A stretch of 40,507 nt of DNA from Elusimicrobiota bacterium (lineage in GTDB: Bacteria > Elusimicrobiota > Elusimicrobia > UBA1565 > UBA9628), in contig JACRDS010000009.1 in NCBI GenBank assembly GCA_016212825.1, positions 1-40,507 on the forward strand. Reading direction: 5' to 3'. The notes beneath the pieces are model-generated. The model was not told the DNA's origin and did no database searches. It saw nothing but the letters and a program-made list of their open reading frames with translations. This document shows, one piece after another, positions 1,882 to 35,443 of the stretch; the stretch's first letter is position 1; every line of letters starts with the position of its first letter. The translations under genes were made by a program, and so were the position numbers.

Positions 1882-2829
1882 TCAGCGCCCCGGAGCCGGG
1901 GCGCGCTTGCGGCGCGCCGCGTGGGCGATGCCGGCGGCGTTGAGCTCCAGGTCGAGCTTGAGGAGCTCCCAGGTCTCGGGGGCGTCGAGGCCCCTCTCCC
2001 GCAGCGCCGCGCGGAAATGCTCGCGCAGGGCGGCTTCGCAGAAGGGGGTCAGCGCCGCGTCGGGCAGGCCCGAGGCCGCGGCGCTCTCCAGCAGCCGCGC
2101 TGAGAAATCCAGGTGCCCCAGCAGTTGCTCCGCGGCCGGGCGCAGGTCCGCGACCTCGCCGAAATGGCTCAGGAAGGCGCGCCGGGCTCCGGTCTTGACC
2201 AGACGTTCCACGCTGGTCCGGGCTTCTTCAGGCTCGTAGCCCGTGGGGCTGGTGGAGGGGAAGATGAAGAGCCCTCTCCCCTGGAGGGCCGGATAAGCCA
2301 GGCCGAAGGAGTCTCCCGTGAACGCCCCTTCCGAGGCCGGGTCCCAGACGCACATGTGGTGGTTGGCATGGCCCCGCGTGTGCAGGAAGGTCAGCTCCCG
2401 GCTGCCCCAGCGCAGGACCTCGCCGTCGGCCATGGCGCGCACGCGGGCCGCGGGCACCGCGCCCACGGAGCCGTAGAGCTCCTCGAAGGCCTGATCCCCG
2501 TAGACCTTGCGGGCGCCGGCCTCCAGGCGCGCGGGGTCGATGATGTGGCCCGCCGCTTTTGGGTGGGCCAGGAGCGTGGCGTTGGGGCAGGCGTCGAGCA
2601 AGGCCTGGCTGCCCGCCGCATGGTCGAGATGGGCGTGCGTCACCACCGCGTAGTCCACCTGCTCCGGGCCCAGGCCTGCGGCCTGGAGGCTCTCCAGCAG
2701 TCTCGGCAGGGCGCGCGCCGTGTTGTTGTCCACGAACAGGGCCCGGCCGCCCTCGACGAGCAGGTAGGAGGCCGCGTAGCCGGGCCGCCCCAGGTAGCGG
2801 CAGTCAATCGCGATGACCGGAGCCGGCAT
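1882..2829 (-). CDS. Metallo-beta-lactamase-fold hydrolase
   Basis: 315 residues. The metal-binding motif THAHLDH gives H65, H67, D69 and H70. Further ligands are the His in GHANHH (about H154), the Asp in FTGDSFG (D173) and a late histidine in LSHFG. This is the full dinuclear-zinc or iron set of glyoxalase II/ETHE1-like hydrolases. The C-terminal 80 residues are helical and basic at the very end. It is the last gene of the minus-strand operon, and its ATG shares one base with the stop of the adenosyltransferase gene (TGATG). A thioesterase or acyl-glutathione-like hydrolase role would suit the acyl-CoA context, but the substrate cannot be read from the sequence. Confidence 0.85.
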   Translation of the reverse strand: MPAPVIAIDCRYLGRPGYAASYLLVEGGRALFVDNNTARALPRLLESLQAAGLGPEQVDYAVVTHAHLDHAAGSQALLDACPNATLLAHPKAAGHIIDPARLEAGARKVYGDQAFEELYGSVGAVPAARVRAMADGEVLRWGSRELTFLHTRGHANHHMCVWDPASEGAFTGDSFGLAYPALQGRGLFIFPSTSPTGYEPEEARTSVERLVKTGARRAFLSHFGEVADLRPAAEQLLGHLDFSARLLESAAASGLPDAALTPFCEAALREHFRAALRERGLDAPETWELLKLDLELNAAGIAHAARRKRAPAPGR

Positions 2830-3329
2830 CAGGGCTTGCGGCGCGACTCCCGATAGGCCAGCATGAAGAACACGGTGGAGAGCCGGTTGAGGTAGGCGTA
2901 GACCGGCGGCCTGAGCTTGCCCGAGCGCAGCAGGGCCGTGCAGGCCGACTCCAGGTCCCGGCAGCGCACCCGGCATTCGTTGTAAGCCGCGGCCAGCGGA
3001 GTGTCGAAGCGCACGAACTTCTTGGGCGGCTCGCCCAAGGAATCCGCGAAGGCCTCGAGCGCGTCCACGTCCGCCCTGGTGACGGGCCAAGGCAGGCAGG
3101 CTTGTCCCGCTCCGGAGAGCTCGCCCGCCGCCTGCCAGAGCTTGCGCTGCACCTCCCTCAGGGCTGCCCAGGCCGAGCCGGCGGCGCCGAGCAGGGCCAG
3201 GTCCACGGCGCTCTGCAGCGAGTCGATCTTGCCGCCCAGCACTATGCGCGGATGGTCCTTGGCCAGCCGCCGTCCGGAGAGGTCGCTGGTGAAGCCCGCG
3301 TCGCCTTTCTTGGTGTAGACCGGCTTCAT
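2829..3329 (-). CDS. PduO-type ATP:cob(I)alamin adenosyltransferase (divergent)
   Basis: 166 residues, usual length is about 170-190. It would transfer the adenosyl group of ATP to cob(I)alamin to make coenzyme B12, which the mutases at 29590 and 35413 need. N-terminal TKKGDAGFT (residues 6-14) is the ATP-binding signature. Near the C-terminus, the CRVRCRDLE segment retains two conserved arginines and the glutamate of the catalytic helix, and YLNRLSTVFFMLAYRE matches the YLNRLSD block. Some positions diverge: the GxxDELNS block reads GGKIDSLQS, the second Arg of the RR pair is Asp, and the Asp after LNRLS is Thr. It overlaps the nitroreductase gene by 4 nt (ATGA) and MBL by 1 nt. Family call firm; full activity less certain. 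Confidence 0.82.
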   Translation of the reverse strand: MKPVYTKKGDAGFTSDLSGRRLAKDHPRIVLGGKIDSLQSAVDLALLGAAGSAWAALREVQRKLWQAAGELSGAGQACLPWPVTRADVDALEAFADSLGEPPKKFVRFDTPLAAAYNECRVRCRDLESACTALLRSGKLRPPVYAYLNRLSTVFFMLAYRESRRKP

Positions 3330-3955
3330 CGAGCGGCGGATAAGGGACCGCCGTCCCTGGAGGGTGGTCGTTCTCCGCTCCCGGAAGGGGCGGCGGGCAG
3401 GGGGAAGGGATTGCCGTGGCGGTCCAAGGACACCAGCTCGGCCAAGGGTTTGCGCTCCACCCGCCGGGGCAGGCGCGCGGGCCAGCCCACGGGGATGAGC
3501 TCCACCACGCTGCGGCCGGCCGGGACCCCCAGGATCTCTCCGGCCTTGGCGAAGTCGAAGTAGCCCGCATGCACGGTCCCCAGCCCCTCGGCGGCCGCGG
3601 CCAAAGCCAGGTGCTCGCAGGCGATGCCCAGGTCGAAGAGCATCCACGCGTCGCCCCGCGCGGTCACGGACTCGCCCTTGTACCAGCCGGAGCGGCCCGC
3701 GATGCCCACCGCGGCTACCAGCACCGGCGCCTCGGCCACGGCCTTGGTCGCGGGGTTGCCCGGCGAGAGGGTCTGCTGGAGCCGGCGCCTGAGCTCCGGG
3801 TCCTGGACCAGGATGAGCTCCCAGGGCTGGACGTTGGCCCAGGAGGGCGCGGCCCGGAAGGCTTCGAGCAGGCGCAGCAGGACCTCGGGGGCGACGGGGT
3901 CGGGCTTGAACTCCCGGATGGACTGCCGGCTGCGCACGGCCTCGTGGAATTCCAT
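3326..3955 (-). CDS. Nitroreductase-family FMN oxidoreductase
   Basis: 209 residues. SRQSIREFKPDPV near the N-terminus is the FMN-phosphate-binding SRRSIRxF motif, and PSWANVQPWELILVQ is the second flavin-binding block. The region AAAAEGLGTVHAGYF and the VVELIPVGWPA segment match the C-terminal flavin-binding half. The last 35 residues are a Pro/Ser/Arg-rich tail. Members reduce nitro groups, quinones or enones, or dehydrogenate substrates, using NAD(P)H. It starts 2 nt after the EtfA-fusion stop and overlaps the adenosyltransferase start by 4 nt, so it is co-transcribed with both. In this context it may be a flavin partner of the fusion protein, or a cobalamin or flavin reductase (inference only). 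Confidence 0.85.
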   Translation of the reverse strand: MEFHEAVRSRQSIREFKPDPVAPEVLLRLLEAFRAAPSWANVQPWELILVQDPELRRRLQQTLSPGNPATKAVAEAPVLVAAVGIAGRSGWYKGESVTARGDAWMLFDLGIACEHLALAAAAEGLGTVHAGYFDFAKAGEILGVPAGRSVVELIPVGWPARLPRRVERKPLAELVSLDRHGNPFPLPAAPSGSGERPPSRDGGPLSAAR

Positions 3956-3957: not shown

Positions 3958-6420
3958 TCAGGCCTCCAGGGAGATGTCCGAGACCCCGCCCAGGCGCTTG
4001 GCCATCTCCGTCATCTCCTTGAGCTTGGCCTCGGCGAACACGGAGAGCCGGGCCCCGTCCGGCGAGCCGCCGCCGTGCATGCAGCCCGGCACGCCCGAGC
4101 CGATGGTGAGCCACTCGATGAGGCGGGCGATGCGGGCCCGGGTCTCGGCCGGAGCGTGGGCCTTGAGGTACTTGCGGATGAGGTGCCCGTAGCGCTCGTC
4201 GAGGAAATCCTGGGCCGAGGGCATGCAGCCGGTCTCCGCGATGCCGCCGGCGATCTCCTGGGTCAGGCGCTTGGTCTCGTAGGGCAAGGTGGCCACGTGG
4301 ACCTTGTTGATGTTGGCCAGCAGGGGGTCGGGCAGCCAGGCCCCGGAGGGGTGCCTGCGCCCGAGCACGGCCGCGGCCAGGCCCACGCCGAAGGTGGTCT
4401 CGTTGTTGACCAGCATGCGCACCAGCTTGTCGCGGAACACCTTCTCCTGCAGGCCGTTGGCCCGGGCCATGAGGATGGCCGCGCCCACCATCACGTCGCC
4501 CTGCCCGGCCACGCAGCCGCCGATGGCCGAGCGGTAGGGCAAGGTGAAGCGCGTGACCGCGTCCTCGGCCGCGGCGTACTCGCCGTTGAGGAAGAGGCGC
4601 TCCTTCGGGACGAATACGTCCTGGAAGAAGAGGTAGGCCTGGGTGATGCCGCCGCGGGTCACCGGGTTGTCGAAGCCCGCCTCCTGCTCGCGGGTGTCCG
4701 AGGGCCGGCGCGCCTCCACGATGGTCAGGCCCGCCGCGTCGCGCGGGATGACGAAGCTCACCGCGTAGTCCGCCTCGGAGCGCTTCAGGCGCGTGCCCGG
4801 CATGACGAAGATCTCCTGAGCCGCGGCCACGCCGCAGATCATGACCTTGGCCCCGCGCACCACCACGCCGCCCGGGCGCCGGGCCACGATGCGCAGGTAG
4901 GAGTCCGGGTCGGCCTGGCGGGAGGGGGGGAGCTTGCGGTTCCCTTTTGGGTCGGTGAGCGCCCCGGCCACGGTGATGTCGCGCTCCTGCGCGCCGCGCA
5001 GCCAGCGGTGCAGCCGGCGGTGGTAGTCGGTGCCCTGCGCCTGGTCCACGTCCCAGGTGACGGACCACATGGCGTTGAGGGCCGCGCCGCCCACGCAGCG
5101 GCCGCCGGTGCAGGTGCCGGTCAGGTTGAAGGCCGCCCGCTTCATGCGGCTCAGGGCGAAGACGTCCTCGGGCGACTGCAGCAGGGAGAGGTAGCGCGAG
5201 ACGCGCTTGCCGCTGAGGTGCGAGGTGGTGGTGAAGAGGTCCTGATGCTGCGGGTCGCGGGCCGCCTCGAAGAGCTGGGCGTGTCCCTCCACGGTGCGCT
5301 TGGTCAGCGGGTCCTCGGTCACGTCTGCGATCAGGCGGCCGAACTTATGGATGTTGGGACGCATGCGGCGCAGGCTCTCCTTGTACGCCTCGGAGGTGCG
5401 GCTGAAACCCGCGGGCTTGATCCGGGCGGCCAGGCCCTTGCCGGTCTTGAGCCTCTGGAGCAGGGCCGTGAGCACTTCCCTGAGGTCGCCCACGATGCCG
5501 TAGTCCGCGCTCTGGAAGATGGGGGCCTTGGGGTCGCGGTTGACGGCCACGATGGTCTTGGCGCCGAGTATGCCCACGGTGTGGTGCATCATCCCGGAGA
5601 TGCCCGCCCCGATGTAGAGGCGGGGCTTGATGGAGACGCCGCTGGCGCCGATCATCTGCCGCGGCTTGGCCCAGCCTTCATCCACCGGGGGCCGGGTGGC
5701 GCCCACGGCACCGTCCAAAGCCCGGGACAGGTCCTCGAGCAGGGCCCAGTCCTTGCGCGAGCCCACGCCGTGGCCGCCCGCCACCACCACGGCCGCGCTC
5801 TTGAGAGCGGCCGGGCCGGAGCCCTCCGCCTCGGCGCGGACCGCCAGGGTCCGCACCCCGCGCAGGCCGCGCGGCAAAAAGACCTTCTCGCGCACGGCCT
5901 TGGCGCCCGGCGTCCGGCCGGGGCGCGCGCTGAAGACCCCGGCGGCTACGGTGGCCATCTGCGGCCGCTGGTCCGGGCAGACGATGTTGGCCATGATGTT
6001 TCCGCCGAAGCCGGGCACGGTCTGGATGAGGCTGGAGCCGTCGAACTTCAGGTCCACGCAATGGGCGCTGAGGCCGGTGCCCAGGCGGGCCGCCACGCGG
6101 GCGGCCCGGGAGGAGTCGGCGCGGCCCGCGCCCAGAAGCAGGACCTCGGGCTTGCGCCGGCGGGCCAGCTCGGAGAGGGCGTAGGCCTGCGTCGGCGCGC
6201 CGCCCTGGTCCAGGCGCGGGTCGTCGAGGACGTAGACCGTGGAGGGGCCGTGGTCCAGCAGGGCCCTGGCCGCCTTGCCCGCCGCCGAGCCCAGGACCAC
6301 GGCTTCCAGGACCATGCCGGCGCTCTCCGCCAGCGCCCGGCCCTTGCCCAGCAGCTCCAGACCGACCGGGTCGGGCCGGCCGTCCTCATGGGAGACGAAC
6401 ACCCAGATGGAAGGCTTCAT
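3958..6420 (-). CDS. Fusion: electron-transfer flavoprotein alpha subunit + 4-hydroxybutyryl-CoA dehydratase-like domain
   Basis: One uninterrupted 820-residue frame. Residues 1-330 are a complete EtfA: N-terminal nucleotide-binding-like domain, then the FAD domain with VVVAGGHGVG (211-220), GATRPPVDEGW (240-250), LYIGAGISG (268-276) and VNRDPKAPIFQSADYGIVGDL (293-313). Residues about 337-820 align end to end with the flavin/FeS 4-hydroxybutyryl-CoA dehydratase/vinylacetyl-CoA isomerase family (AbfD). AbfD FeS cysteines C99, C103 and C299 correspond to C437, C442 (CX4C instead of CX3C) and C636. The His ligand H292 is Y629, and catalytic T190, E257, Y296, K300 and E455 are C529, Q594, I633, V637 and G779 (alignment by eye). 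It overlaps etfB by 4 nt. It is probably an ETF-coupled flavoenzyme with a non-canonical reaction, not an ordinary dehydratase. Confidence 0.85.
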   Translation of the reverse strand: MKPSIWVFVSHEDGRPDPVGLELLGKGRALAESAGMVLEAVVLGSAAGKAARALLDHGPSTVYVLDDPRLDQGGAPTQAYALSELARRRKPEVLLLGAGRADSSRAARVAARLGTGLSAHCVDLKFDGSSLIQTVPGFGGNIMANIVCPDQRPQMATVAAGVFSARPGRTPGAKAVREKVFLPRGLRGVRTLAVRAEAEGSGPAALKSAAVVVAGGHGVGSRKDWALLEDLSRALDGAVGATRPPVDEGWAKPRQMIGASGVSIKPRLYIGAGISGMMHHTVGILGAKTIVAVNRDPKAPIFQSADYGIVGDLREVLTALLQRLKTGKGLAARIKPAGFSRTSEAYKESLRRMRPNIHKFGRLIADVTEDPLTKRTVEGHAQLFEAARDPQHQDLFTTTSHLSGKRVSRYLSLLQSPEDVFALSRMKRAAFNLTGTCTGGRCVGGAALNAMWSVTWDVDQAQGTDYHRRLHRWLRGAQERDITVAGALTDPKGNRKLPPSRQADPDSYLRIVARRPGGVVVRGAKVMICGVAAAQEIFVMPGTRLKRSEADYAVSFVIPRDAAGLTIVEARRPSDTREQEAGFDNPVTRGGITQAYLFFQDVFVPKERLFLNGEYAAAEDAVTRFTLPYRSAIGGCVAGQGDVMVGAAILMARANGLQEKVFRDKLVRMLVNNETTFGVGLAAAVLGRRHPSGAWLPDPLLANINKVHVATLPYETKRLTQEIAGGIAETGCMPSAQDFLDERYGHLIRKYLKAHAPAETRARIARLIEWLTIGSGVPGCMHGGGSPDGARLSVFAEAKLKEMTEMAKRLGGVSDISLEA

Positions 6421-7211
6421 GAGAGCACCTTGTCCTTGCGCAACCTTTCCAGCAACTGGGCCGCGGCCTCGTCAGGCGAGCCCTGCAGCATCTCTCCCCT
6501 GCGCTTGACCGGCGGGGTGAATATGTTGAGCATGCGAGTGGGCGAGCCGGCCAGGCCCACGCCGGAGGGAGCCAGCTTGAGGTCGCGGGCCGACCAGGCG
6601 GAGATCTTCTTGGACGCGGCCGCGCGGAGCGAGGCCAGCGGGGTCAGCCGCGGCGCGTTGGCCGACTGGTCCAAGGTGACCAGGGCCGGGAGCTCCGTCT
6701 CGCACACGGCCTGCCTTTCCTCGCGCAGGCAATGGGCATGCAGCTTCTTCCTCTTGATCTCGAGGGAGCGGGCGAAGGTCAGGTCCGGTATGCCGAGGAG
6801 CTCGGCCAACTGGGGGCCCACCTGGCCCGTGCTGCCGTCGGCGCTGTAGCCGCCGCAGAGGATCAGGTCGAAGCGGCCGAGCTTGCGCACGGCCGCGGCC
6901 AGCACGCGCGCCGTGGCCAAGGTGTCGGCGCCGGCGAAGGCGGGGTCCGTGAGCAGGCAGGCCCGGTCGCAGCCCAGGGCCAGGGCCTCCTGGAGCTGCT
7001 CCAAGGCGCCCGGCGCGGCCATGGCCAGCGCGCTGACGCGGCCCTTGTGACGGGCCTTGAGCGCGGCCGCGGCCTCCAGGGCGTTGCGGTCCAGGGGGTT
7101 GATGACGGAAGGCACCTCGTCGCGGCGCAGGAGCATGGTGTCCGGGTCCAGGCGCAGCTTGTCGAAGCGGGAGGGGTCGGGCACGGGCTTGACGCAGACG
7201 ATGATGTGCAT
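6417..7211 (-). CDS. etfB: Electron transfer flavoprotein beta subunit (partner of the EtfA fusion)
   Basis: 264 residues. CVKPVPDP at the N-terminus, NPLDRNALEAAAALK (about 38-52) and GGYSADGSTGQVGPQLAELLGIP are EtfB hallmarks that bind the nucleotide (AMP or a second FAD) and contact EtfA. The C-terminal segment carries the recognition-loop region and the arm that wraps EtfA. The stop overlaps the start of the EtfA fusion by 4 nt, and the acyl-CoA dehydrogenase lies 14 nt upstream. Together they should form an acyl-CoA-dehydrogenase/ETF electron-transfer unit. Whether this ETF bifurcates electrons (second FAD in EtfB) cannot be settled by eye. It differs clearly from the second EtfB at 11815. 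Confidence 0.9.
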   Translation of the reverse strand: MHIIVCVKPVPDPSRFDKLRLDPDTMLLRRDEVPSVINPLDRNALEAAAALKARHKGRVSALAMAAPGALEQLQEALALGCDRACLLTDPAFAGADTLATARVLAAAVRKLGRFDLILCGGYSADGSTGQVGPQLAELLGIPDLTFARSLEIKRKKLHAHCLREERQAVCETELPALVTLDQSANAPRLTPLASLRAAASKKISAWSARDLKLAPSGVGLAGSPTRMLNIFTPPVKRRGEMLQGSPDEAAAQLLERLRKDKVLS

Positions 7212-7225: not shown

Positions 7226-8359
7226 TCAGTTGAGCGCGGCGCGCGAGACCACGATCTTGCCCACCTCGGTGGTGCCGCCGGCCGAGATGCAGACCATGGC
7301 GTCGCGGAAGCAGCGCTGCACCGGGTAGTCCAGCATGGTGCCGCAGCCGCCGTGGATCTCCAGGGCCTTGCGGCTGGCGCGCAGGGCGGCCTCGGTGGTG
7401 TAGAGCTTGGCCATGGTCATGTGCGTGGCGCAGTCGCGGCCCCGGTCCTTGAGCCAGGAGGCGCGGTAGCAGACCAGCCGGGCCGTCTCCAGGTCGGTCA
7501 GGATGTCGGCCACGTTCCACTGGATGGCCTGCAGGGCGGCGATGGGCTTGCCGTAGAGAGTGCGGCTCTTGGAGAACTTCACGGCTTCGTCGAATGCCGC
7601 CTCCAGGATGCCCAAGGACACCGCGGCCATGCCCGGCCGGCCCACCTCGCCGATGGTCTTGAGCGCCACCTTCATGCCCTCGCCCTCGTCGGCGACCAGG
7701 GCCGATTCCGGCACGCGGCAGTTCTTGAAGAAGAACTCGCCGGTGTCCGCGCCGAGCAGGCCCATCTTGTGCTCCTCGCGGCCCAAAGAGAAGCCCTGGG
7801 CCCCTTTCTCTATGATGAAGGCGCTCAGGCCCCGCGAGCCCTCGCCGGTCTTGGCGATGATCAGGGGGGCGGCGCAGAGGTGGGCGTTGGTGATGTAGCA
7901 CTTGCTGCCGTTGAGCACGTAGCCGCCCCGGGCGCGCGCGGCCGTGCTGGCCATGCCCACGAGGTCGGACCCGCCCGTGGGCTCGGTCACCGCGCAAGTC
8001 CCCAGGAACTCGCCCCGGCACATCCGCGGCAAAAGCCGCTCCTTCTGGGCCTTGCTGCCCCAGTCGTTGACGGCCGCGGACTGCATGTGGTGCACCTGCA
8101 AAGAGATGCCCACGGCCGCCGAGACCTTGCTGACCTCGGCCACGGCCGCGGTGCGGGCCAGCCAGCCCAGCTCCGAGCCGCCGTAGCGGCGCGGCGTGAC
8201 CAGGCCCAGCAGGCCGACCTCGGCCAGCTGCTTGATGAGGGGCTTTGGGAACTTCCCGGAGCGCTCCATCTCCGGGACCAAAGGCGCCACGACTTGGCGC
8301 GCGAAGTCGCGCGCGGTGCGCTGCACGATCTTGACGGGGTTGGGGAAATCGAAGTCCAT
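7226..8359 (-). CDS. Acyl-CoA dehydrogenase-family flavoprotein lacking the usual catalytic Glu
   Basis: 377 residues, usual length. FAD and substrate-binding blocks are present: GTCAVTEPTGGSD, YVLNGSKCYITNA, KSRTLYGKPIAALQAIQ and the C-terminal KALEIHGGCGTMLDYPVQRCFRDA block. The short-chain enzyme motif YEGTSEI aligns without gaps to AGGTTEV here, placing G361 where the catalytic Glu normally sits. The alternative position on helix G, used by isovaleryl-CoA and long-chain dehydrogenases, also holds Gly (GEVGRPG). The base is therefore not at either standard site. It is the first gene of the minus-strand operon, followed after 14 nt by etfB, so it should pass electrons to the EtfB/EtfA-fusion pair. 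It may act on an unusual acyl-CoA using another acidic residue (inference). Confidence 0.88.
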   Translation of the reverse strand: MDFDFPNPVKIVQRTARDFARQVVAPLVPEMERSGKFPKPLIKQLAEVGLLGLVTPRRYGGSELGWLARTAAVAEVSKVSAAVGISLQVHHMQSAAVNDWGSKAQKERLLPRMCRGEFLGTCAVTEPTGGSDLVGMASTAARARGGYVLNGSKCYITNAHLCAAPLIIAKTGEGSRGLSAFIIEKGAQGFSLGREEHKMGLLGADTGEFFFKNCRVPESALVADEGEGMKVALKTIGEVGRPGMAAVSLGILEAAFDEAVKFSKSRTLYGKPIAALQAIQWNVADILTDLETARLVCYRASWLKDRGRDCATHMTMAKLYTTEAALRASRKALEIHGGCGTMLDYPVQRCFRDAMVCISAGGTTEVGKIVVSRAALN

Positions 8360-8364
8360 GGTGC

Positions 8365-8392
8365 TTCACTCTAATAAAATAATGGCTATAAT
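8365..8392 (+). promoter_or_regulatory. Promoter for the ptb-buk/beta-oxidation operon in a 43-bp divergent spacer
   Basis: TTCACT (8365-8370) and a perfect TATAAT (8387-8392) are spaced 16 nt apart inside an AT-rich spacer between two divergent operons. Initiation would fall near 8399, only a few nucleotides before the ATG at 8403, and no Shine-Dalgarno sequence is visible there, so the message may be nearly leaderless. The same spacer must also drive the minus-strand operon starting at 8359. Confidence 0.5.
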
Positions 8393-8402
8393 ACAAACTG
8401 CC

Positions 8403-10640
8403 ATGTTCCGCATAGAGGAGTCGTTCGTCAAGCACATCCTCTCCCTCCAGAAAGACCGCCCCACCGTCGTGTTCACCGAGCCGGACGACCCCCGCGTGCT
8501 CGAGGCCGTCTGCTATCTGGGGCGCTTCATCAAGCCGGTGCTCCTGGCCTCCGAGGAGTCCGTGCGCGCCTGGGCGGCGCAGAGCCTGTCCCACCTGGAG
8601 CCCACCCGCGTGGAGTTCGCCCTGTCGGAGTGCGCCTTCGTGGACATCCCCCGGCAGGCCGCCCTGGTCGAGGAGTTCGCGGCCGACTGCCTCAAGAACC
8701 GGCGCTGCGGCAGCGCGGCCGCGGACCTGGCGACGGCCAGGTCCGCGGTCTCGGAGCCGGGTCTCTTCGGCGTCTACGCCGCGCACCTGGGCCACGCGGA
8801 CATGGTGGTGGGCGGGGCCCGCCACGGCGCCAAGGACTTCTTCCGGCCCATGCTCGCGGTGCTCTCCAAGCGGGAGGTGGTCTGCGAGGCGGGCTTCTTC
8901 GTCCTGCCCGACGAGCACCCGGAATCGCTCTACCCCCACAACATCGTGGTCTTCGGCGACATCGGCGTCAACGCGACCATGAGCCCGCGCAAGCTGGCGG
9001 ACGTGGCCGTGGGCATCTGCGCGGTGGCGCGCGACCTCATCCCGGAGGAGGTCCTGCCCGAGATCCACGGCGCCATAGTCTCCTACTCGCACCGGGGCTC
9101 CGACGAGGGCCCCTCCCCGGACATGATCCGCCAGGCCATGGCCCTGATCCCCGGCCTGCTGGCCGAGCGCGTGCGCCTGGGCCGGCGCTACGCCGGCATC
9201 CGCATCGCGGGCGAGGTGAAGATCAGCGCGGCCGTCTCGCGGCGCTCCGCCGAGCTCTACGGCGGCGACGGCCTCGGCGGCGGAACCAACGTCATCATCT
9301 GCCCCAACCTGGAGACCGGCAACCTCCTCTACGACCTCTACTCCTCGCGCTACCCCACCGCCAAGAAGTTCCAGGTCATCTTCGGCGTGGGCTTCCGGGG
9401 CGTGGACCTGGCCATCGACTGCAGCCCGGAGGACGTGCGCCTGGCGGTCAAGGCCTCGGTGCTGCGCCTGCACCGCTACGGCCGCTGGACCCGCACCCCC
9501 CAGGACACCTTCTTCCGCCGCCACCGCGTCCTGGCCGTCAACCCGGGCTCCACCTCCACCAAGATCGCGGTCTATGAAGGAGAGGTGGAGACCTTCAGCC
9601 GCGAGCTGCAGCACACCCAGGCGGAACTGGCCCCCTTCGCCGGCCGCCGCATCGCCGAGCAGTACGCCATGCGCAAGGACTCCGTTCTGCGCGCCTTGGG
9701 CGAGGCCAAGCTCGGCCCCGGCGACATGGACGCCTTCTGCGGGCGCGGCGGACTGCTGCGCCCCATCCCGCACGGCACTTACCGGGTGGGCGAGGCCATG
9801 CTCGCCGAGCTGCGCGCGGGCCTGGGCGGGGAGCACGCCTCCAATCTGGGCGGCCTCATCGCCCACGACCTGGCCGCGCCCGCGGGCAAGCCCGCCTTCA
9901 TCGTGGACCCTGTGGTGGTCGACGAGACTCCCCCGCGGGTGAAGGTCACCGGCGTCAAGGCCATCCGCCGGCGAGTGATCAGCCACGCCCTCAACCAGAT
10001 CGCCTCGGCGCGGCGCTACGCGCAGGAGAACGAGACCTTCTACGAGCGCGTCAACGTGGTGGTCTGCCACCTGGGCGGCGGCATCTCCATCGGGGCCCAT
10101 TCCCAGGGCCGCTACATCGACGCCAACAACGGGCTCGACGGCGAGGGGCCCTTCAGCCCGGAGCGCTGCGGCTCTTTGCCCCAGGCGCAGTTCGCGGAGC
10201 TCTGCTTCTCGGGGCGCCTGACCCACGCGGAGGTCAAGAAGCTCATCAAGGGCGCGGGTGGGCTCATCGACCTGCTGGGCACCTCGGACCTGCGCGAGGT
10301 GGAGCGCCGCATCGCCGCCGGCGACGCGGAGGCCGCGGAGGTCTTCGACGCCATGGCCTACCAGATCGCCAAGGCCGCGGCCGCCTTGCTGCCGGCCTTC
10401 GACGGGCAGAAGCTCGACCGCGTCATCCTGACCGGCGGCATGGCGCGCTCCGCCATGCTGGTGGAGCGCCTCGCGGGCTACCTGGTCGGCCTGGGCTGCG
10501 GCGTCACCGTCTACCCCGGAGAGAACGAGATGGCGGCCCTGGCCAAGGGCGCCCTGCGCGTGCTCTACGGCCGGGAAGCCGCGCGCGAGTACACGTCCCC
10601 GGACCGGGCGTCGCTGGCGCCGCGGCCCGCAATCCCTTAG
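8403..10640 (+). CDS. Fused phosphate (iso)butyryltransferase - (iso)butyrate kinase
   Basis: 745 residues in one frame. Residues 1 to about 365 are a phosphate acetyl/butyryltransferase domain (acyl-CoA + Pi to acyl-phosphate): TVVFTEPDDPRVLEAV, ADMVVGGARHGAKDFFRP and the NVIICPNLETGNLLYDL block. Residues about 375-745 are a butyrate kinase (acyl-phosphate + ADP to acid + ATP): VLAVNPGSTSTK, GRGGLLRPIPHGTY, EHASNLGG, FIVDPVVVDE, HALNQIASAR, HLGGGISIGAH, NNGLDGEGPFSPER and the GENEMAALAKGALRVL end. These enzymes are normally separate adjacent genes. The start was chosen at the ATG giving FRIEESFVKHI, where the family homology begins. It leads the beta-oxidation operon, so it would harvest ATP from butyryl- or isobutyryl-CoA. 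Confidence 0.9.
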   Translation: MFRIEESFVKHILSLQKDRPTVVFTEPDDPRVLEAVCYLGRFIKPVLLASEESVRAWAAQSLSHLEPTRVEFALSECAFVDIPRQAALVEEFAADCLKNRRCGSAAADLATARSAVSEPGLFGVYAAHLGHADMVVGGARHGAKDFFRPMLAVLSKREVVCEAGFFVLPDEHPESLYPHNIVVFGDIGVNATMSPRKLADVAVGICAVARDLIPEEVLPEIHGAIVSYSHRGSDEGPSPDMIRQAMALIPGLLAERVRLGRRYAGIRIAGEVKISAAVSRRSAELYGGDGLGGGTNVIICPNLETGNLLYDLYSSRYPTAKKFQVIFGVGFRGVDLAIDCSPEDVRLAVKASVLRLHRYGRWTRTPQDTFFRRHRVLAVNPGSTSTKIAVYEGEVETFSRELQHTQAELAPFAGRRIAEQYAMRKDSVLRALGEAKLGPGDMDAFCGRGGLLRPIPHGTYRVGEAMLAELRAGLGGEHASNLGGLIAHDLAAPAGKPAFIVDPVVVDETPPRVKVTGVKAIRRRVISHALNQIASARRYAQENETFYERVNVVVCHLGGGISIGAHSQGRYIDANNGLDGEGPFSPERCGSLPQAQFAELCFSGRLTHAEVKKLIKGAGGLIDLLGTSDLREVERRIAAGDAEAAEVFDAMAYQIAKAAAALLPAFDGQKLDRVILTGGMARSAMLVERLAGYLVGLGCGVTVYPGENEMAALAKGALRVLYGREAAREYTSPDRASLAPRPAIP

Positions 10641-16984: not shown

Positions 16985-17013
16985 TTGTCCGCCCTACCAA
17001 AATGTGCTTTTAT
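16985..17013 (+). promoter_or_regulatory. Probable promoter of the pyrimidine-degradation operon
   Basis: TTGTCC (16985-16990) and TTTTAT (17008-17013) are separated by 17 nt in the 127-nt gap before the beta-ureidopropionase gene. Each box matches consensus at four of six positions. It is the only AT-richer stretch in the gap. The leader would be about 50 nt, with GAGAGGGG close to the ATG at 17071. Confidence 0.4.
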
Positions 17014-17070
17014 GAGGTCTCGCCTCCAAATGGGGAGCTAGGGGCTCAAAGACCAAGAGAGGGGTCCAAA

Positions 17071-17943
<873 letters not shown>

Positions 17944-17954
17944 GAGGCTCACAC

Positions 17955-19406
17955 ATGAAGACCGCGGCGCGGGAGAAGTCGTCGGCCGGGAGCGCCCGCC
18001 CCGGCTCCACGGGGGAGACCTTGGTCAGGGGCGGGACCGTGTTCACGGCTGCGGACTCCTTCCCGGCCGACATCCTCATCCGGGGCGAGAAGATCGCGGC
18101 CATAGGCGAGAGGCTGACGCCGGGCGCCGCGGCCGGCGTGGTGGACGCCAAGGGCCTGGAGATCTATCCGGGCGGCGTGGACGTGCACACCCATTTCGAG
18201 CTGCCCTTCATGGGCACGGTGTCCGCGGACGACTTCGAGAGCGGCACCATCGCCGCGGCCTGCGGCGGCACCACCACCATAATCGACTTCGTCATCCCCT
18301 CCAAGGGCGGCAGCCTCCTCGACGCCCTGGCGGCCTGGCGCAAGAAGGCGGAAGGCAAGGCGGTCGTGGACTACGGCTTCCACATGGCTTTGGTGGAGAT
18401 GAACGCAGATGTGGCGGCCGAGTTCCCCAAGCTCATCCGCGCGGGCGTCACCAGCTTCAAGTGCTTCATGGCTTACAAGGGCGCGTTCATGATGGATGAC
18501 GACCAGCTCCTGGAGACCTTGGGCCTGGCCAAGAAGCATGGCGGCCTGGTCTCCGTCCACGCCGAGAACGGGGACATGCTGACCCATCTCATGAAGCATC
18601 TGCTCGCGGCGGGCAAGACCGGCCCCGAATACCACCCCGTCGCCCATCCGGCCGAGGCCGAGGGCGAGGCCGTGCACCGGGCCGTCGCTCTGGCGCAGAT
18701 GGCCCAGGCGCCGCTCTACATCGTGCACCTGAGCTGCCGGGAAGCCCTGGCCGAGGTCAAGGCCGCGCGCTGCCGAGGCCAGCTGGTCCTGGCCGAGACC
18801 TGCCCCCAGTACCTGCTCCTCGACGACGAGCTGTATAGGAAGAACGGCTTTGAAGCCGCCAAGTGGGTGATGTCGCCGCCGCTGCGGGACAAAGCCGGCC
18901 AGGAGCAGCTCTGGCAGGGCCTGCGCGACGGCTTCATCCAGGGCGTGGCCACCGACCACTGTTCCTTCCGGTTCCAGGGCCAGAAGGACATGGGCCAGTC
19001 GGCCTTCACCAAGATCCCCAACGGCATCCCCGCGGTCGGAGACCGCGTGAGCCTCCTCTACACCTACGGCGTGGGCAAGAAGCGCCTGAACCGCAACCAG
19101 TTCGCGGCCGTCATCGCCGCCAACCCGGCCAAGATCTTCGGCCTCTACCCGCAGAAGGGGACTATCGCGGTAGGCTCGGACGCGGACCTCGTGCTCTTCG
19201 ACCCCAAGAAGAAGGGCCGCGTATCCAAGGACAACACCCATCACAACGTGGACTACTCGGCCTTCGAGGGCTTCGCCTTGGAGGGGCTGCCCGTCTTGGT
19301 CATGTCCCGGGGCCGGATCATCGCCAAGGACGACGAGTTCCTGGGCCGCAAAGGCTGCGGGCGCTTCATCAAGAGGAAGGGATTCGACGCGCAGGACTGG
19401 AGCTAG
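17955..19406 (+). CDS. hydA: Dihydropyrimidinase (D-hydantoinase family)
   Basis: 483 residues. The amidohydrolase dinuclear metal site is complete: H78 and H80 (DVHTHFELPF), carboxylated-lysine candidate K169 (SFKCFMAYKG), H202 (VHAENGD), a later His in IVHLSC and the Asp in GVATDHCSF. It opens dihydrouracil or dihydrothymine to the N-carbamoyl beta-amino acid. The first 22 residues are a low-complexity Ser/Ala/Gly extension before the conserved LVRGGTVFTA; no closer in-frame ATG is better placed, and AGGAGG sits correctly before this one. Its position between beta-ureidopropionase and a beta-amino-acid aminotransferase argues for the pyrimidine route rather than hydantoin use. Confidence 0.92.
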   Translation: MKTAAREKSSAGSARPGSTGETLVRGGTVFTAADSFPADILIRGEKIAAIGERLTPGAAAGVVDAKGLEIYPGGVDVHTHFELPFMGTVSADDFESGTIAAACGGTTTIIDFVIPSKGGSLLDALAAWRKKAEGKAVVDYGFHMALVEMNADVAAEFPKLIRAGVTSFKCFMAYKGAFMMDDDQLLETLGLAKKHGGLVSVHAENGDMLTHLMKHLLAAGKTGPEYHPVAHPAEAEGEAVHRAVALAQMAQAPLYIVHLSCREALAEVKAARCRGQLVLAETCPQYLLLDDELYRKNGFEAAKWVMSPPLRDKAGQEQLWQGLRDGFIQGVATDHCSFRFQGQKDMGQSAFTKIPNGIPAVGDRVSLLYTYGVGKKRLNRNQFAAVIAANPAKIFGLYPQKGTIAVGSDADLVLFDPKKKGRVSKDNTHHNVDYSAFEGFALEGLPVLVMSRGRIIAKDDEFLGRKGCGRFIKRKGFDAQDWS

Positions 19407-19409
19407 ACC

Positions 19410-20708
19410 ATGCCAGTGGAAACCACGAAGAACGCGGAAGTGACCAAGAAGTACAAGGAGTTCCTGTATCCCTCGGTCATCACCTACTACCAGGAGCCCT
19501 TGCCCTTGGTCTCAGGCCAGGGCTGCCAGGTGACCGACGCGGAGGGGAGGAAGTACCTGGACTTCTTCGGGGGCATCCTCACTGTATCCATCGGCCACTG
19601 CCACGCAGGTGTCACGGCCAAGGTCATCGCCCAGCTCAAGAAGCTCCAGCATGTCTCCACCCTCTACCCCACGGCTCCCGTCTCGGACCTGGCCGAACGG
19701 CTGGCCGGCATAACCCCCAAGGGCCTGCGCCGGAGCTTCTTCACCAACAGCGGCACCGAGGCCGACGAGACGGCCGTCTTGACCGCCCAACACTACACCG
19801 GGGCGGCCGAGATCATCGCGCTGAGGCACTCCTACAGCGGCCGCTCGGCCATGGCCATGAGCCTGACCGCGCACTCTGCCTGGAGGATCTCCCGCACGCC
19901 CGTGCCCAACATCCGGCACGCGCACGCGCCCTACTGCTACCGCTGCCCCTTCAAGCTGGAGTATCCGGCCTGCGAGCTGGCCTGCGCCAAGGACATCGAG
20001 GAGCTCATCTTGACCGAGACCTGCGGCAAGGTCGCGGCTTTCCTGGCCGAGCCCATCCTGGGCGTGGGCGGCTTCGTGGTCCCGCCCAAGGAGTACTTCC
20101 AGACGGCCGTGGAGATCGTGCGCCGCTACGGCGGGCTCTTCATCGCCGACGAGGTGCAGACGGGCTGGGGCCGCACCGGCTGCAAGTGGTTCGGCATCGA
20201 GCATTTCAACGTGGTCCCGGACATCATGACCTCGGCCAAGGGCATGGCCAACGGCATCCCCATCGGCTGGACCGTGACCACGGACCAGATCGCCGCGGGC
20301 CTCAAGGGCCTGACCATCTCCACCTTCGGAGGCAATCCCGTATCCTGCGCGGCCGCGCACGCGACCATAGACGCCATCCAGGAGGAAGGCCTGCTGGACA
20401 ACGTCGAGAAGACCGGCGCCTATCTGCGCGAGCACCTGCTCGGCCTGCAGAAGGATTTCCCCGGCATCGGCGACGTGCGGGGCATGGGTCTGATGCAGGG
20501 CGTCGAGTTCGTGACGGACCGCAAGACCAAGGCCCCGGACGCCAAGATCGTGGCCCGGCTGTTCGAGGAGACCAAGAAGGAGGGACTGCTCATCGGCAAG
20601 GGCGGGCTCTACGGCAACGTCCTGCGCATCAGCCCGCCCATGTGCGCGACCAAGGGCGACGTGGACGACGCCATCAAGCGCCTGCGCAAGGCGCTGGAAA
20701 AGATCTAG
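19410..20708 (+). CDS. Class III PLP aminotransferase (beta-alanine / 3-aminoisobutyrate type)
   Basis: 432 residues. The fold-type I class III signature is FIADEVQTGWGRTG, with D247 holding the pyridine nitrogen, and the Schiff-base lysine is K277 (TSAKGMANGIPIG). The FTNSGTEADETAV block binds the PLP phosphate. The YCYRCPFKLEYPACELACAKDIEELI stretch resembles the AGXT2 branch, which includes alanine-glyoxylate and (R)-3-amino-2-methylpropionate-pyruvate aminotransferases. It would convert beta-alanine or 3-aminoisobutyrate to malonate or methylmalonate semialdehyde. It starts 3 nt after the dihydropyrimidinase stop and 9 nt before the semialdehyde dehydrogenase. The exact amino acceptor is unknown. 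Confidence 0.9.
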   Translation: MPVETTKNAEVTKKYKEFLYPSVITYYQEPLPLVSGQGCQVTDAEGRKYLDFFGGILTVSIGHCHAGVTAKVIAQLKKLQHVSTLYPTAPVSDLAERLAGITPKGLRRSFFTNSGTEADETAVLTAQHYTGAAEIIALRHSYSGRSAMAMSLTAHSAWRISRTPVPNIRHAHAPYCYRCPFKLEYPACELACAKDIEELILTETCGKVAAFLAEPILGVGGFVVPPKEYFQTAVEIVRRYGGLFIADEVQTGWGRTGCKWFGIEHFNVVPDIMTSAKGMANGIPIGWTVTTDQIAAGLKGLTISTFGGNPVSCAAAHATIDAIQEEGLLDNVEKTGAYLREHLLGLQKDFPGIGDVRGMGLMQGVEFVTDRKTKAPDAKIVARLFEETKKEGLLIGKGGLYGNVLRISPPMCATKGDVDDAIKRLRKALEKI

Positions 20709-20717
20709 GAGGTTACC

Positions 20718-22196
20718 ATGGCCAGCACCACGGCGGTCACGAAATACGGCGACCTGAACAACTTCATCGGCGGCAAGCCCTCGAGCCCGGCCCAGGCGGA
20801 ACGCGCTAAGAGGATCAGTCCGGTCGACGGCAGCGTCCTTTCCACCTTCCCCCTGTCCGGCACCGACGAGCTGGACAAGGCGGTCGCGGCCGCCCAGAAG
20901 GCGTTCCCGGAATGGTCGAGCCGCACCATCAAGGAGCGCGCCCAGGTCTTCTTCAAATACTACGAGCTCCTCTCCAAGAACCTCAAGTCCTGCGCCGAGA
21001 TCATGCACGACGAGATGGGCAAGAACCTCGACGAGGCCATGCAGGAGACGGCCAAGTCCCTGGAACTGACCGAGTTCGCCTGCGCCCTGCCGCAGGTCGC
21101 CACCGGCGACTTCGAGGAGGTCAGCCGCGGAGTCGAGTGCCATGAGGAGCACCTCCCCCTGGGCGTGGTCGCCTCCATCACCCCCTTCAACTTCCCGCAC
21201 ATGGTGCCGCACTGGACCCTCCCCAACGCCATCGTCCTGGGCAACACCATGGTCCTCAAGCCCTCGCGCGAGGCGCCCCGCACCGTGCTGCGCATCGCCG
21301 AGATGCTGCAGGAGGCGGGCCTGCCCGACGGCGTCCTGAACGTCGTCTGCGGCGGCCGCGAGATCGTCACGGCCATCGCCGAGCATCCCGGCATCGAGGC
21401 CGTGTCCTTCGTGGGCTCGACCAAGGTCGCCAAGATGGTCTACCAGAAGACGACGAACCGCGGCAAGCGGTGCCTGGCTTTGGGCAGCGCCAACAACCAC
21501 CTGATCCTCATGCCCGACGCCCACCCGGCCAATTCGGCGGCCAACATCGCCGCCTCCTACCTCGGCTGCGCCGGCCAGCGCTGCATGTCCGCCTGCGTGC
21601 TGGTGGCCGTGGGCGATTGCGAAGAGACCATCGCCAAGATCATCGAGGAATCGAAGAAGTTCGTGCCCGGGGTCAACATGAGCGCCATCGTCAACCCCGA
21701 GGCCAAGGCCTCGATCGCCGGCTTCATCGACCGGGCCGAGAAGGACGGGGCCAAGGTCCTGCTCGACGGCCGCCAGGTCCAGCCGCCCAAAGGCCTGGCC
21801 AAGGGCTGCTACCTCGGCCCGACCATCATCGAGGCCAAGGCTGGCTCGGAGATCGCGGTCGAGGAGAACTTCGGCCCGGTGCTGACCATCGTGCGCGCCC
21901 AGAACCTGACCGAGGCGCTCTCCATCGCCAACTCCTCGCCCTACGGCAACGGCGGCTCGATCTTCACCCAGAGCGGCCGGTCCGCCGAGGTCTTCTGCGA
22001 CAAGATCCAGGCCGGCATGGTCGGCGTCAACGTCGGCGTGCCGGTGCCGCGCGAGCCCTTCTCATTCGGCGGCTGGAAGGATTCGATCGTGGGCGGCGGC
22101 GACATCACGGGCAAGAGCGCGGTGCGCTTCTGGACCAAGGTCAAGAAGATCTCCTGCAAGTGGAACCCGGACCGGCCGCTCCTCTGGCTGGCCTGA
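20718..22196 (+). CDS. mmsA: CoA-acylating (methyl)malonate-semialdehyde dehydrogenase
   Basis: 492 residues. The aldehyde dehydrogenase fold has nucleophile C289 (CAGQRCMSA). ITPFNFPHMVPHWTLPNAI and LGSANNHLILMPDA replace the usual ALDH blocks; the general-base Glu of ordinary ALDHs is absent, as is characteristic of MmsA-type enzymes that use CoA instead of water. It converts malonate semialdehyde to acetyl-CoA, or methylmalonate semialdehyde to propionyl-CoA, with NAD+ and release of CO2. AGGAGG lies 6 nt before the ATG. It is the last gene of the pyrimidine operon, and its propionyl-CoA would feed the carboxylase and mutase genes at 33875-37909. Its stop codon is the first triplet of the direct repeat at 22194. 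Confidence 0.92.
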   Translation: MASTTAVTKYGDLNNFIGGKPSSPAQAERAKRISPVDGSVLSTFPLSGTDELDKAVAAAQKAFPEWSSRTIKERAQVFFKYYELLSKNLKSCAEIMHDEMGKNLDEAMQETAKSLELTEFACALPQVATGDFEEVSRGVECHEEHLPLGVVASITPFNFPHMVPHWTLPNAIVLGNTMVLKPSREAPRTVLRIAEMLQEAGLPDGVLNVVCGGREIVTAIAEHPGIEAVSFVGSTKVAKMVYQKTTNRGKRCLALGSANNHLILMPDAHPANSAANIAASYLGCAGQRCMSACVLVAVGDCEETIAKIIEESKKFVPGVNMSAIVNPEAKASIAGFIDRAEKDGAKVLLDGRQVQPPKGLAKGCYLGPTIIEAKAGSEIAVEENFGPVLTIVRAQNLTEALSIANSSPYGNGGSIFTQSGRSAEVFCDKIQAGMVGVNVGVPVPREPFSFGGWKDSIVGGGDITGKSAVRFWTKVKKISCKWNPDRPLLWLA

Positions 22197-22226
22197 GCCG
22201 GGCTCTCCCCTAAGAGCTTGCGGCCC
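22194..22226. repeat. Direct repeat, left copy, flanking higBA
   Basis: TGAGCCGGGCTCTCCCCT (22194-22211) recurs identically at 23783-23800. After a 1-2 nt difference, GAGCTTGCGGCCC also recurs (22214-22226 versus 23802-23814), and CCTGCCT follows both copies. The left copy begins with the mmsA stop codon and runs up to the higBA promoter. The two copies bracket the toxin-antitoxin pair, suggesting that a piece of the mmsA 3' region was duplicated when the module arrived. Confidence 0.75.
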
Positions 22227-22233
22227 CTGCCTC

Positions 22234-22262
22234 TTGACATAAGCGGGGATTTGGCATATACT
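22234..22262 (+). promoter_or_regulatory. Strong sigma70-type promoter of higBA
   Basis: TTGACA (22234-22239), a perfect -35 box, and TATACT (22257-22262) are separated by exactly 17 nt. This is the best promoter match in the window and stands out against the surrounding GC-rich sequence. Initiation would fall at about 22269, inside the palindrome that follows. Confidence 0.8.
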
Positions 22263-22269
22263 ATCAGCG

Positions 22270-22288
22270 ATTCACCCATAGGGTGAAT
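22270..22288. promoter_or_regulatory. Palindromic operator of higBA
   Basis: Perfect inverted repeat with 8-nt arms ATTCACCC and GGGTGAAT around ATA. It lies 7 nt after the -10 box and so spans the transcription start. Binding by the helix-turn-helix domain of HigA, with autorepression, is the natural inference. Confidence 0.7.
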
Positions 22289-22325
22289 AGGTTTAATATA
22301 TGACGGCCCCAGGACAGGTTCCAAC

Positions 22326-22634
22326 TTGCGCTTCAGATTTCGCTCCACTAAACTTCAACAGCTATACGAAACAGAAGCCGAAGCCCGGCGCTATCCGCTA
22401 GAAGTGGTGGATGGGTTCTTTGAGGCGATGTCCGTCATCAAGGCGGCCGCCGACGAACGCGACCTGTATGCGTTGAAGGGATTCCATTTTGAGAAGCTGA
22501 AAGGAGAGCGAGGCAAGGCTGGAGAAAGGTCGTTGCGGCTGAATAAGCAGTGGCGGCTGATAGTCAAGGTCGAGCAGGACACTCAGGGGAAGCTGATACT
22601 CATCCTGGACATTGAAAAGCACTACAACGAGTGA
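22326..22634 (+). CDS. higB: HigB-like RelE-superfamily mRNA interferase toxin
   Basis: 102 residues. The RelE fold is evident in the ALKGFHFEKLKGERGKAGERSLRLNKQWRLIVKVE stretch: the toxin core beta-sheet carrying the basic residues, with SLRLNKQWRLIV the most conserved strand. The C-terminus LILDIEKHYNE matches the HigB ending (VDYH-like). HigB cleaves translated mRNA in the ribosomal A site. The start is TTG at 22326, preceded by AGGACAGG; the ATG at 22300 is in another frame. Toxin-before-antitoxin order is typical for hig. The higA frame follows directly and may overlap by 4 nt if GTG at 22631 is used. Codon use is visibly less GC-biased than in neighbours, consistent with transfer. Confidence 0.88.
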   Translation: MRFRFRSTKLQQLYETEAEARRYPLEVVDGFFEAMSVIKAAADERDLYALKGFHFEKLKGERGKAGERSLRLNKQWRLIVKVEQDTQGKLILILDIEKHYNE

Positions 22635-22651
22635 CGACCAACGGGGGCAGA

Positions 22652-23746
22652 ATGGCGATGGAGGCGGCAAGAGTCGTGAAGCCGGGGCAGATCCTAGCCC
22701 GAGAGCTGGAGGCGCGCGGCTGGTCTCAGAAGGACCTGGCTGAGATCATGGGCAGGCCTATTCAGGCGGTCAACGAGATCGTCGGCGGCTCCAAGCAGAT
22801 CACCCCCAACACGGCCCACGAGCTGGCCCAGGTGTTCGGGACTTCGCCGGAGTTCTGGATGAATCTCGAAACGAATTACCGGCTGCACCTCGCCCAAAAG
22901 GAGCCAGGCAGCAGCGACATCCCGCGCCGAAGCAGGGTCTACAACCTCGCTCCGGTCAAGGAACTCATCAAGCGCGGCTGGATCAAGACCCCGGATTCCA
23001 TCAATGAGCTGGAAAAGCGCGTTTGCTCTTTCTTGGAGATTGCCTCCCCGGAGGAGGAGCCGGCATTTGAGGTGGCCGTCAGCCGTCGACACTCGGTGGA
23101 GAGAGGCCCTGTCGATGCCGCTCAGATCGCGATGCTCAAACGAGCCGAACATCTGGCGGCAGCGCAGAAAGTCGGGCGGTTCGATCGGAAGAAATTCCGT
23201 GCCGCTATCCCACAGCTGCTGGACTGCGCCAAAGACGCGAAGAGCGCCGCCAGAGTGCCCAAGTTCCTCATGGACCTCGGCGTCCACTTCGTCATCGTGC
23301 CCTCGCTGCCGCAATCATTCCTGGATGGCGCGACATTCAACCCCGCCGGCAATCCGATAGTCGCGCTGTCGCTGCGCTACGACCGGATAGATAATTTCTG
23401 GTTCACGCTGATGCATGAGGTCGCGCATGTGGACGGGGCGCACCGCGGCATATTCATCGACAATGACATCAAGCAGGACGCCAAGGGATCCGAGGAGAAG
23501 GAGGCTGACGCTTCGGCCCAGGATTGGCTGATCGAGGCAACCCGCTATCAAGCCTTTGTGCGGGCGGCGAGGCCGTATTTCTCCAGGCGGAGCATCGTCA
23601 CCTTCGCCCAAGAGATCGGAAGGCACCCGGGGATCGTTTTGGGCCGGCTGCACCATGAGCAGGCGGTGCACTATGCGCATCTTCGGCCCATGCTGGAAAG
23701 GGTGCGGCCCATCCTGGCGGGCTGGGTCGATGTGGCTCATGCGTAG
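22652..23746 (+). CDS. higA: HigA-like antitoxin fused to an ImmA/IrrE-type zinc peptidase domain
   Basis: 364 residues. Residues about 10-85 are an XRE helix-turn-helix of the HigA type (KPGQILARELEARGWSQKDLAEIMG...FGTSPEFWMNLETNYRL). The C-terminal two thirds carries a gluzincin-like site, HEVAH, with zinc ligands H255 and H259 and E256 as catalytic Glu, in the context FWFTLMHEVAHVDGAHRG, followed by EEKEADASAQDWLI with a third-ligand candidate. Minimal HigA proteins are about 100 residues; the long form suggests self-cleavage or cleavage-controlled derepression. The ATG at 22652 has GGGGG upstream; the alternative GTG at 22631 would overlap the toxin stop by 4 nt. It probably represses its own promoter through the palindrome at 22270. 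Confidence 0.85.
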   Translation: MAMEAARVVKPGQILARELEARGWSQKDLAEIMGRPIQAVNEIVGGSKQITPNTAHELAQVFGTSPEFWMNLETNYRLHLAQKEPGSSDIPRRSRVYNLAPVKELIKRGWIKTPDSINELEKRVCSFLEIASPEEEPAFEVAVSRRHSVERGPVDAAQIAMLKRAEHLAAAQKVGRFDRKKFRAAIPQLLDCAKDAKSAARVPKFLMDLGVHFVIVPSLPQSFLDGATFNPAGNPIVALSLRYDRIDNFWFTLMHEVAHVDGAHRGIFIDNDIKQDAKGSEEKEADASAQDWLIEATRYQAFVRAARPYFSRRSIVTFAQEIGRHPGIVLGRLHHEQAVHYAHLRPMLERVRPILAGWVDVAHA

Positions 23747-23782
23747 CGGAGTTCCTCAAGGGCGCTGGCTGTAAGCAGAGCT

Positions 23783-23814
23783 TGAGCCGGGCTCTCCCCT
23801 GGAGCTTGCGGCCC
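23783..23814. repeat. Direct repeat, right copy, flanking higBA
   Basis: Second copy of the 22194-22226 repeat: the first 18 nt are identical, then GGAGCTTGCGGCCC replaces AAGAGCTTGCGGCCC. Here the repeat continues into an intact hairpin (23806-23826) that the left copy lacks. It lies 36 nt after the higA stop and before the convergent DpnI-like gene. Confidence 0.75.
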
Positions 23815-23826
23815 TCTGGGCCGCAA
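23806..23826. terminator. Hairpin between convergent higA and the DpnI-like gene
   Basis: Perfect 9-bp stem, arms TTGCGGCCC and GGGCCGCAA, with a 3-nt loop TCT. There is no T-tract on either side, so it is at best a non-canonical bidirectional terminator. The gap 23747-23860 contains nothing else apart from the repeat copy. Confidence 0.45.
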
Positions 23827-23860
23827 AGCAAGTGATTACAAGGCGAGGCCCTGCCTTTCT

Positions 23861-26172: not shown

Positions 26173-26180
26173 CGTCCCTC

Positions 26181-33878: not shown

Positions 33879-35443
<1,565 letters not shown>

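Follow-up and report, generated by a model that had tools for sequence, protein, structure and literature searches.

An 820-residue single-chain fusion of EtfA with an AbfD/HpaB-like domain in Elusimicrobiota

The fusion gene and its surroundings

The DNA analysed here is a stretch of 40,507 nucleotides from an Elusimicrobiota bacterium (GenBank assembly GCA_016212825.1, contig JACRDS010000009.1), hereafter the window. Its minus strand carries a tight run of genes encoding an acyl-CoA dehydrogenase-like protein (ACAD1; 7226-8359), a bifurcating-type EtfB (etfB1; 6417-7211), a fusion of EtfA with an AbfD/HpaB-like domain (3958-6420), a nitroreductase-family protein (3326-3955), a PduO-type cob(I)alamin adenosyltransferase (2829-3329) and, as the final gene, a metallo-beta-lactamase-fold protein (1882-2829). 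The order ACAD1-etfB-fusion is identical in every genome found to carry the fusion, and the nitroreductase gene follows the fusion in every Elusimicrobiota carrier; the last two genes of the run are also present in genome G002, which has the nearest relative of the window copy. Across carriers, the conserved neighbourhood is limited to ACAD1-etfB-fusion(-nitroreductase).

The fusion frame runs from 6420 to 3958 and comprises 820 codons with zero internal stops. Pfam places ETF at residues 5-177, ETF_alpha at 206-284, HpaB_N at 342-611 and HpaB at 620-810, all far above cut-off. Residues 3-328 align to solved ETFs and residues 342-813 to AbfD (4-hydroxybutyryl-CoA dehydratase; 1u8v), which indicates that both domains are whole and separated by a linker of about 15 residues. 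We thus distinguish an EtfA part (residues 1-325; 5446-6420), a linker (residues 326-341; 5398-5445) and an AbfD/HpaB-like domain (residues 342-820; 3961-5397). The original prediction of a complete EtfA and a complete AbfD-family domain in one 820-residue frame, overlapped upstream by etfB, is borne out by the open frame, the Pfam matches and the PDB alignments, the overlap between etfB1 and the start of the fusion being 4 nt (ATGA).

Other features of the window include a plus-strand chain at 8385-10640 in which a phosphate butyryltransferase-like domain (PTA_PTB, residues 21-318) and an acetate/butyrate kinase-like domain (acetate kinase, residues 549-697) are joined according to Pfam; this Ptb-Buk chain also occurs in the carriers G002 and G016. 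The genes at 17002-27527, encoding a carbon-nitrogen hydrolase, an amidohydrolase, a class III aminotransferase, an aldehyde dehydrogenase and a two-gene dihydropyrimidine dehydrogenase, look like a pathway of reductive pyrimidine degradation. At 27689-29593 (plus strand), a membrane-linked CCG/[4Fe-4S] protein (CCG and Fer4 by Pfam) is encoded, presumably similar to the EtfD/EMO type of ETF:quinone oxidoreductase. Genes for an IcmF-like fused acyl-CoA mutase, which has a MeaB domain within its chain, for a free-standing MeaB, for a carboxyltransferase and for a further methylmalonyl-CoA mutase subunit adjoin each other at 29590-37080. Finally, the minus-strand frame at 1184-1867 contains a segment (MIRRGEIYWTALDPTVGSEIRKTRPALVVSND) that, judged by eye, looks like MazF/PemK.

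Carriers, unfused relatives and selection

Nine genomes were found to carry the fusion, with identities of 60-89% across carriers: seven Elusimicrobiota, one unplaced bacterium and one MAG labelled Acidobacteria. Eight copies are full length and one is split. Besides the window copy, full-length fusions are present in the Elusimicrobiota genomes G002, G044, G022, G036, G016 and G041 (71-89% identity to the window copy) and in 'bacterium Zod_Metabat.886' (65%). In the MAG Acidobacteria WY2.bin142 the gene is divided over two contigs, with 60% identity over the EtfA side and 75% over the rest. The source genome of the window is a draft of 186 contigs, in which an assembly or sequencing error joining two genes, or hiding a stop and start between EtfA and the second domain, could be suspected; an uninterrupted fusion in seven more genomes of varied kinship, plus one cut by a contig end, leaves this explanation with a negligible probability, and we rejected it on the strength of these independent genomes. 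The occurrence of the fusion in further genomes, which had been left as a check on the original prediction, is likewise established by these carriers. As that prediction had supposed, the fusion does not appear to be a described enzyme: no description was found in the open-access papers searched, a collection that mostly excludes subscription journals and whose silence is not proof that the enzyme is undescribed.

Among 341 Elusimicrobiota genomes, the AbfD-like domain occurs in seven and is fused in all seven. The distribution is patchy, as G004, a genome of the same genus as the window and 99% complete, is without the domain, which fits either loss or horizontal transfer. A scan of viral contigs with the AbfD-like domain alignment returned zero relatives; plasmid records yielded AbfD/VAI/HpaB-type relatives of at most 38% identity, with the fusion in none of the matches listed (VAI denotes vinylacetyl-CoA delta-isomerase).

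Within the searched phyla, where unfused relatives were sampled, one close relative of the C-terminal domain stands alone. This protein (L041, also L069, at 7806-9284 of a contig with 41% GC in genome G413) shares 53-55% identity with the fused domains and has the same CX4C, Tyr, MICG and TGC features; its C780 region is masked, and three short stretches are given as N. No ETF or ACAD1 gene adjoins it, and no ACAD1 ortholog was found in the G413 genome (best match at most 35%). As a copy exists unfused and with no ETF gene beside it, a covalent ETF is apparently dispensable for the working of the domain.

Both halves of the fusion are under purifying selection, as indicated by low dN/dS values between the window copy and that of G002: 0.26 overall, 0.32 for EtfA and 0.20 for the AbfD-like half. 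The linker tolerates change, with a dN/dS of about 0.55 over its 16 codons. Conservation is strongest in the AbfD-like half, at 74-93% identity versus 66-89% for the whole chain.

Residue changes in the AbfD-like domain, the ETF and ACAD1

The C-terminal domain was compared with AbfD in 1u8v numbering taken from the alignment, in which C99, C103, H292, C299 and E455 land at their literature positions. We take T190, E257, Y296, K300 and E455 of AbfD to be catalytic or flavin-related and C99, C103, H292 and C299 to be its cluster ligands. Three cluster cysteines are retained: C437 and C442, in the motif CTGGRC (5095-5112), correspond to C99 and C103 with CX4C spacing instead of CX3C, and C636 (4513-4515) corresponds to C299. 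The histidine ligand H292 is replaced by Y629 (4534-4536) and T190 by C529 (4834-4836). These two replacements, together with E257 to Gln, Y296 to Ile and K300 to Val, are found in all full-length fusions, in which E455 is also gone with a four-residue deletion before CMHGGGSP. Two further cysteines stand out, C732 (4225-4227) within a two-residue insertion (ETGC) and C780 (4081-4083) adjoining the lost E455 position; together with C437, C442, C529 and C636 they are invariant in 8/8 full-length fusions, and C780 is a candidate fourth cluster ligand. The TDxKG motif is retained. The AbfD-like domain probably still binds FAD and an Fe-S cluster with cysteine ligands. AlphaFold models of the whole fusion and of the domain alone had mean pLDDT values of 48.9 (8 rows) and 36.6 (7 rows), respectively, too low for interpretation.

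A maximum-likelihood tree groups the fused domains and the unfused L041 into one clade with support of 100/100, outside the clade of AbfD and VAI (99/98), to be read with the caution that L038 forms a long branch beside the fused-domain clade. The more distant clades L038, L053 and L059 retain CX3C and the histidine, so that the state of the fused clade is probably derived. The C-terminal domain is therefore not AbfD; its clade is separate and lies next to those of AbfD and vinylacetyl-CoA isomerase. In this respect the original prediction, which had taken the second domain for an active enzyme of the 4-hydroxybutyryl-CoA dehydratase type, is not supported, given the separate clade and the replacement of the known AbfD catalytic residues in all full-length fusions. 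A related proposal is that the domain still acts as 4-hydroxybutyryl-CoA dehydratase or vinylacetyl-CoA isomerase, with an ETF whose only task is to adjust or restore the oxidation state of the domain's flavin. An overall identity of 36-41% to AbfD/VAI-type proteins, with 1u8v as the best PDB match, and the retained TDxKG and cluster cysteines would fit this; the replacements, the loss of E455, the CX4C spacing and the separate clade make it quite improbable, and the assignment as a true AbfD was rejected on these grounds.

The Pfam name of the domain could also point to an oxygen-using flavin monooxygenase of the HpaB type in which the ETF replaces the reductase. Oxygen may indeed be present, as COX1-family (haem-copper oxidase) genes were found in 5/10 genomes, namely the window genome and four other carriers. 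However, the domain groups with AbfD and VAI, far from the HpaB-like rows of the tree, and those rows lack the cluster cysteines kept here. No COX1-family gene was found in four of the nine carriers or in G413, all of them draft genomes, and the distribution hence does not require an oxygen-dependent role. We regard a monooxygenase as very unlikely.

For both the EtfA part and EtfB, the top five PDB matches are bifurcating ETFs, the nearest solved relatives of the EtfA part being CarE, 4kpu, 7koe, LctC and 5ol2. In Ldh-EtfAB, cryo-EM and mutagenesis have revealed that R205 of the EtfA subunit LctC is in contact with N5 of the b-FAD, the bifurcating flavin, and that R205A abolishes bifurcation (PMC9232219). 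Counting along the LctC alignment row, the arginine of QIRPAFGGN lies opposite V135 of the fusion (QTVPGFGGN; codon at 6016-6018). Valine occupies this position in 9/9 fusions, and arginine in the five solved bifurcating ETFs and in 14/14 comparison EtfAs (13 from relative genomes and the second EtfA of the window). In all fusions, His stands at the position of LctC D189; near the alpha-FAD, GASG replaces G[QL][ST]G and H replaces the Q of QH, with R243 and H280 kept. By the motifs of the same study (PMC9232219), EtfB mostly retains the b-FAD motif DGDTAQVGP, as DGSTGQVGP in the window or in similar form, and SPT is kept. In the RxFxG motif of the NAD site, the window has Pro instead of the Arg (PAFAG), G002 has Ala and G342 has Ile; Lys or Arg is found in the other carriers.

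It could be argued from these similarities that the complex bifurcates, splitting electrons of NADH between ACAD1 and the AbfD-like domain as low-potential acceptor, since both ETF halves are nearest to bifurcating ETFs and EtfB retains most of its b-FAD motif plus SPT. The valine in place of the arginine needed for bifurcation, in all nine fusions, and the changed NAD-site residue in the window genus and G342 leave such a scheme a small chance. We consider the ETF of the fusion to be derived from the bifurcating type and unlikely to bifurcate by the known mechanism; this reading extends the mutant phenotype of a single study to the Val position, and other, unrecognised changes could offset the loss of the arginine.

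The third partner is also unusual. Orthologs of ACAD1 (73-89% identity) occur in exactly the seven fusion genomes among the 341 Elusimicrobiota, in which the next-best acyl-CoA dehydrogenase reaches 41% and has the ordinary Glu of IYEGTSE; in the carriers G341 and G342, ACAD1 is present with 65-66%. As the three genes form one operon, their co-occurrence shows co-inheritance and not physical contact. All ACAD1 proteins lack the JK-loop Glu (SAGGTTE for IYEGTSE in the window) and have a one-residue insertion with an extra invariant Glu at TIxExGR (TIxExGRPG in the window). In isovaleryl-CoA dehydrogenase the catalytic Glu is relocated to helix G, and the Glu of TIxExGR may likewise be a relocated catalytic base of ACAD1. 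Most dehydrogenases of this kind conserve the JK-loop Glu, the exceptions being the long-chain, isovaleryl- and benzylmalonyl-CoA dehydrogenases (PMC11659651). With the usual catalytic Glu absent, the dehydrogenase activity of ACAD1 is uncertain.

A proposed electron circuit and its relation to known systems

ETFs are carriers that normally dock and then leave. AbfD-type enzymes, a classic example of radical catalysis that is redox-neutral overall, normally need no electron carrier. The AbfD-like domain belongs with ACAD1 to a single fold superfamily, both being flavoenzymes of the acyl-CoA type. We propose, with a probability of about 0.5, that the EtfA::AbfD-like chain assembles with EtfB and ACAD1 into a single redox complex in which the ETF shuttle links the dehydrogenase to a tethered FAD/[Fe-S] acyl-CoA enzyme of net-redox chemistry. 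The EtfAB shuttle domain bearing the alpha-FAD would be covalently tied to the AbfD-like domain by the linker of about 15 residues and could dock on ACAD1 via EtfB. If, as is probable, the b-FAD can no longer act as a bifurcation site, electrons would most simply follow the circuit ACAD1 <-> alpha-FAD <-> AbfD-like cofactors. The AbfD-like domain would no longer perform the redox-neutral dehydration/isomerisation of AbfD; it would draw on the ETF for electrons to reduce a CoA thioester (or, running backwards, oxidise one), or would be the exit through which electrons leave the complex. With three cysteines retained and the acid/base set lost, net-redox conversion of a CoA thioester, or a role as terminal electron outlet, is the most likely function. 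In this regard, the original suggestion that the ETF flavin brings net electron exchange to the reaction is supported as the most economical reading; it did not extend to the ACAD1 partner, the missing bifurcation Arg of the EtfA half or the unfused relative.

The geometry of the fusion is in line with this circuit. The shuttle domain holding the alpha-FAD is formed by the C-terminal segment of EtfA (PMC9232219), and a domain fused C-terminally thus sits beside the alpha-FAD. In CarE and LctC, a ferredoxin domain is fused N-terminally, near the b-FAD. Fe-S domains fused to EtfA are a known theme (PMC9232219), and the C-terminal domain might be an electron-transfer module only, relaying electrons between the ETF and an external carrier without a substrate of its own, as the retained cluster cysteines and the missing acid-base residues would allow. 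The fusion lies, however, on the alpha-FAD side and not on the b-FAD side, an unfused relative without ETF exists, and the conservation of the AbfD-like half (dN/dS 0.20), including long stretches round the former substrate site, exceeds the needs of a relay, for which reasons we think a pure relay rather unlikely.

Going beyond the proposed complex, we suggest tentatively, and at somewhat less than even odds, that these proteins represent a new class of ETF-driven radical/reductive acyl-CoA enzymes of AbfD fold, in which a re-ligated and possibly all-cysteine cluster would serve net-redox reactions at C-O, C-N or C-C bonds of a CoA ester and a dedicated non-bifurcating ETF, together with the unusual ACAD1, would supply the power. 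Genes elsewhere in the window (for IcmF, methylmalonyl-CoA mutase, carboxyltransferase, an HMG-CoA lyase-like protein, thiolases, beta-oxidation and the Ptb-Buk chain) suggest short or branched CoA esters as substrates, although conservation across carriers stops at ACAD1-etfB-fusion(-nitroreductase). That the pairing is covalent and conserved, and that residues have changed in the EtfA part, the AbfD-like domain and ACAD1, suggests that an AbfD fold has been turned into an ETF-fed redox enzyme. If true, the ETF family would gain a new kind of electron outlet and the AbfD/HpaB fold a new kind of reaction, and the three genes are a small and definite set for expression and testing.

Compared with AbfD of Clostridium aminobutyricum (1u8v) and vinylacetyl-CoA delta-isomerase (6vjr), the C-terminal domain shares the fold family, a full-length alignment, the three cluster cysteines and TDxKG, but differs from both in its CX4C spacing, the Tyr in place of the His ligand, the loss of T190, E257, Y296, K300 and E455, three further invariant cysteines, the EtfA tether and its separate clade. 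CarCDE (6fah), Bcd-EtfAB (5ol2) and Ldh-EtfAB (7qh2) resemble the present system in the gene set dehydrogenase-etfB-etfA and provide its nearest EtfA and EtfB sequences; unlike these bifurcating complexes, it has Val for the essential Arg and a partner dehydrogenase without the JK-loop Glu. CarE and LctC are also alike in having an EtfA with an extra cofactor domain, although theirs is an N-terminal ferredoxin whereas that of the fusion is C-terminal, AbfD-like and about 480 residues long. The non-bifurcating acryloyl-CoA reductase AcrCAB of Clostridium propionicum is likewise related, NCBIfam ranking AcrC first for ACAD1, AcrA first for the EtfA part and AcrB second for EtfB, all with scores far below the curated cut-offs; to our knowledge, AcrA is without an AbfD-like domain.
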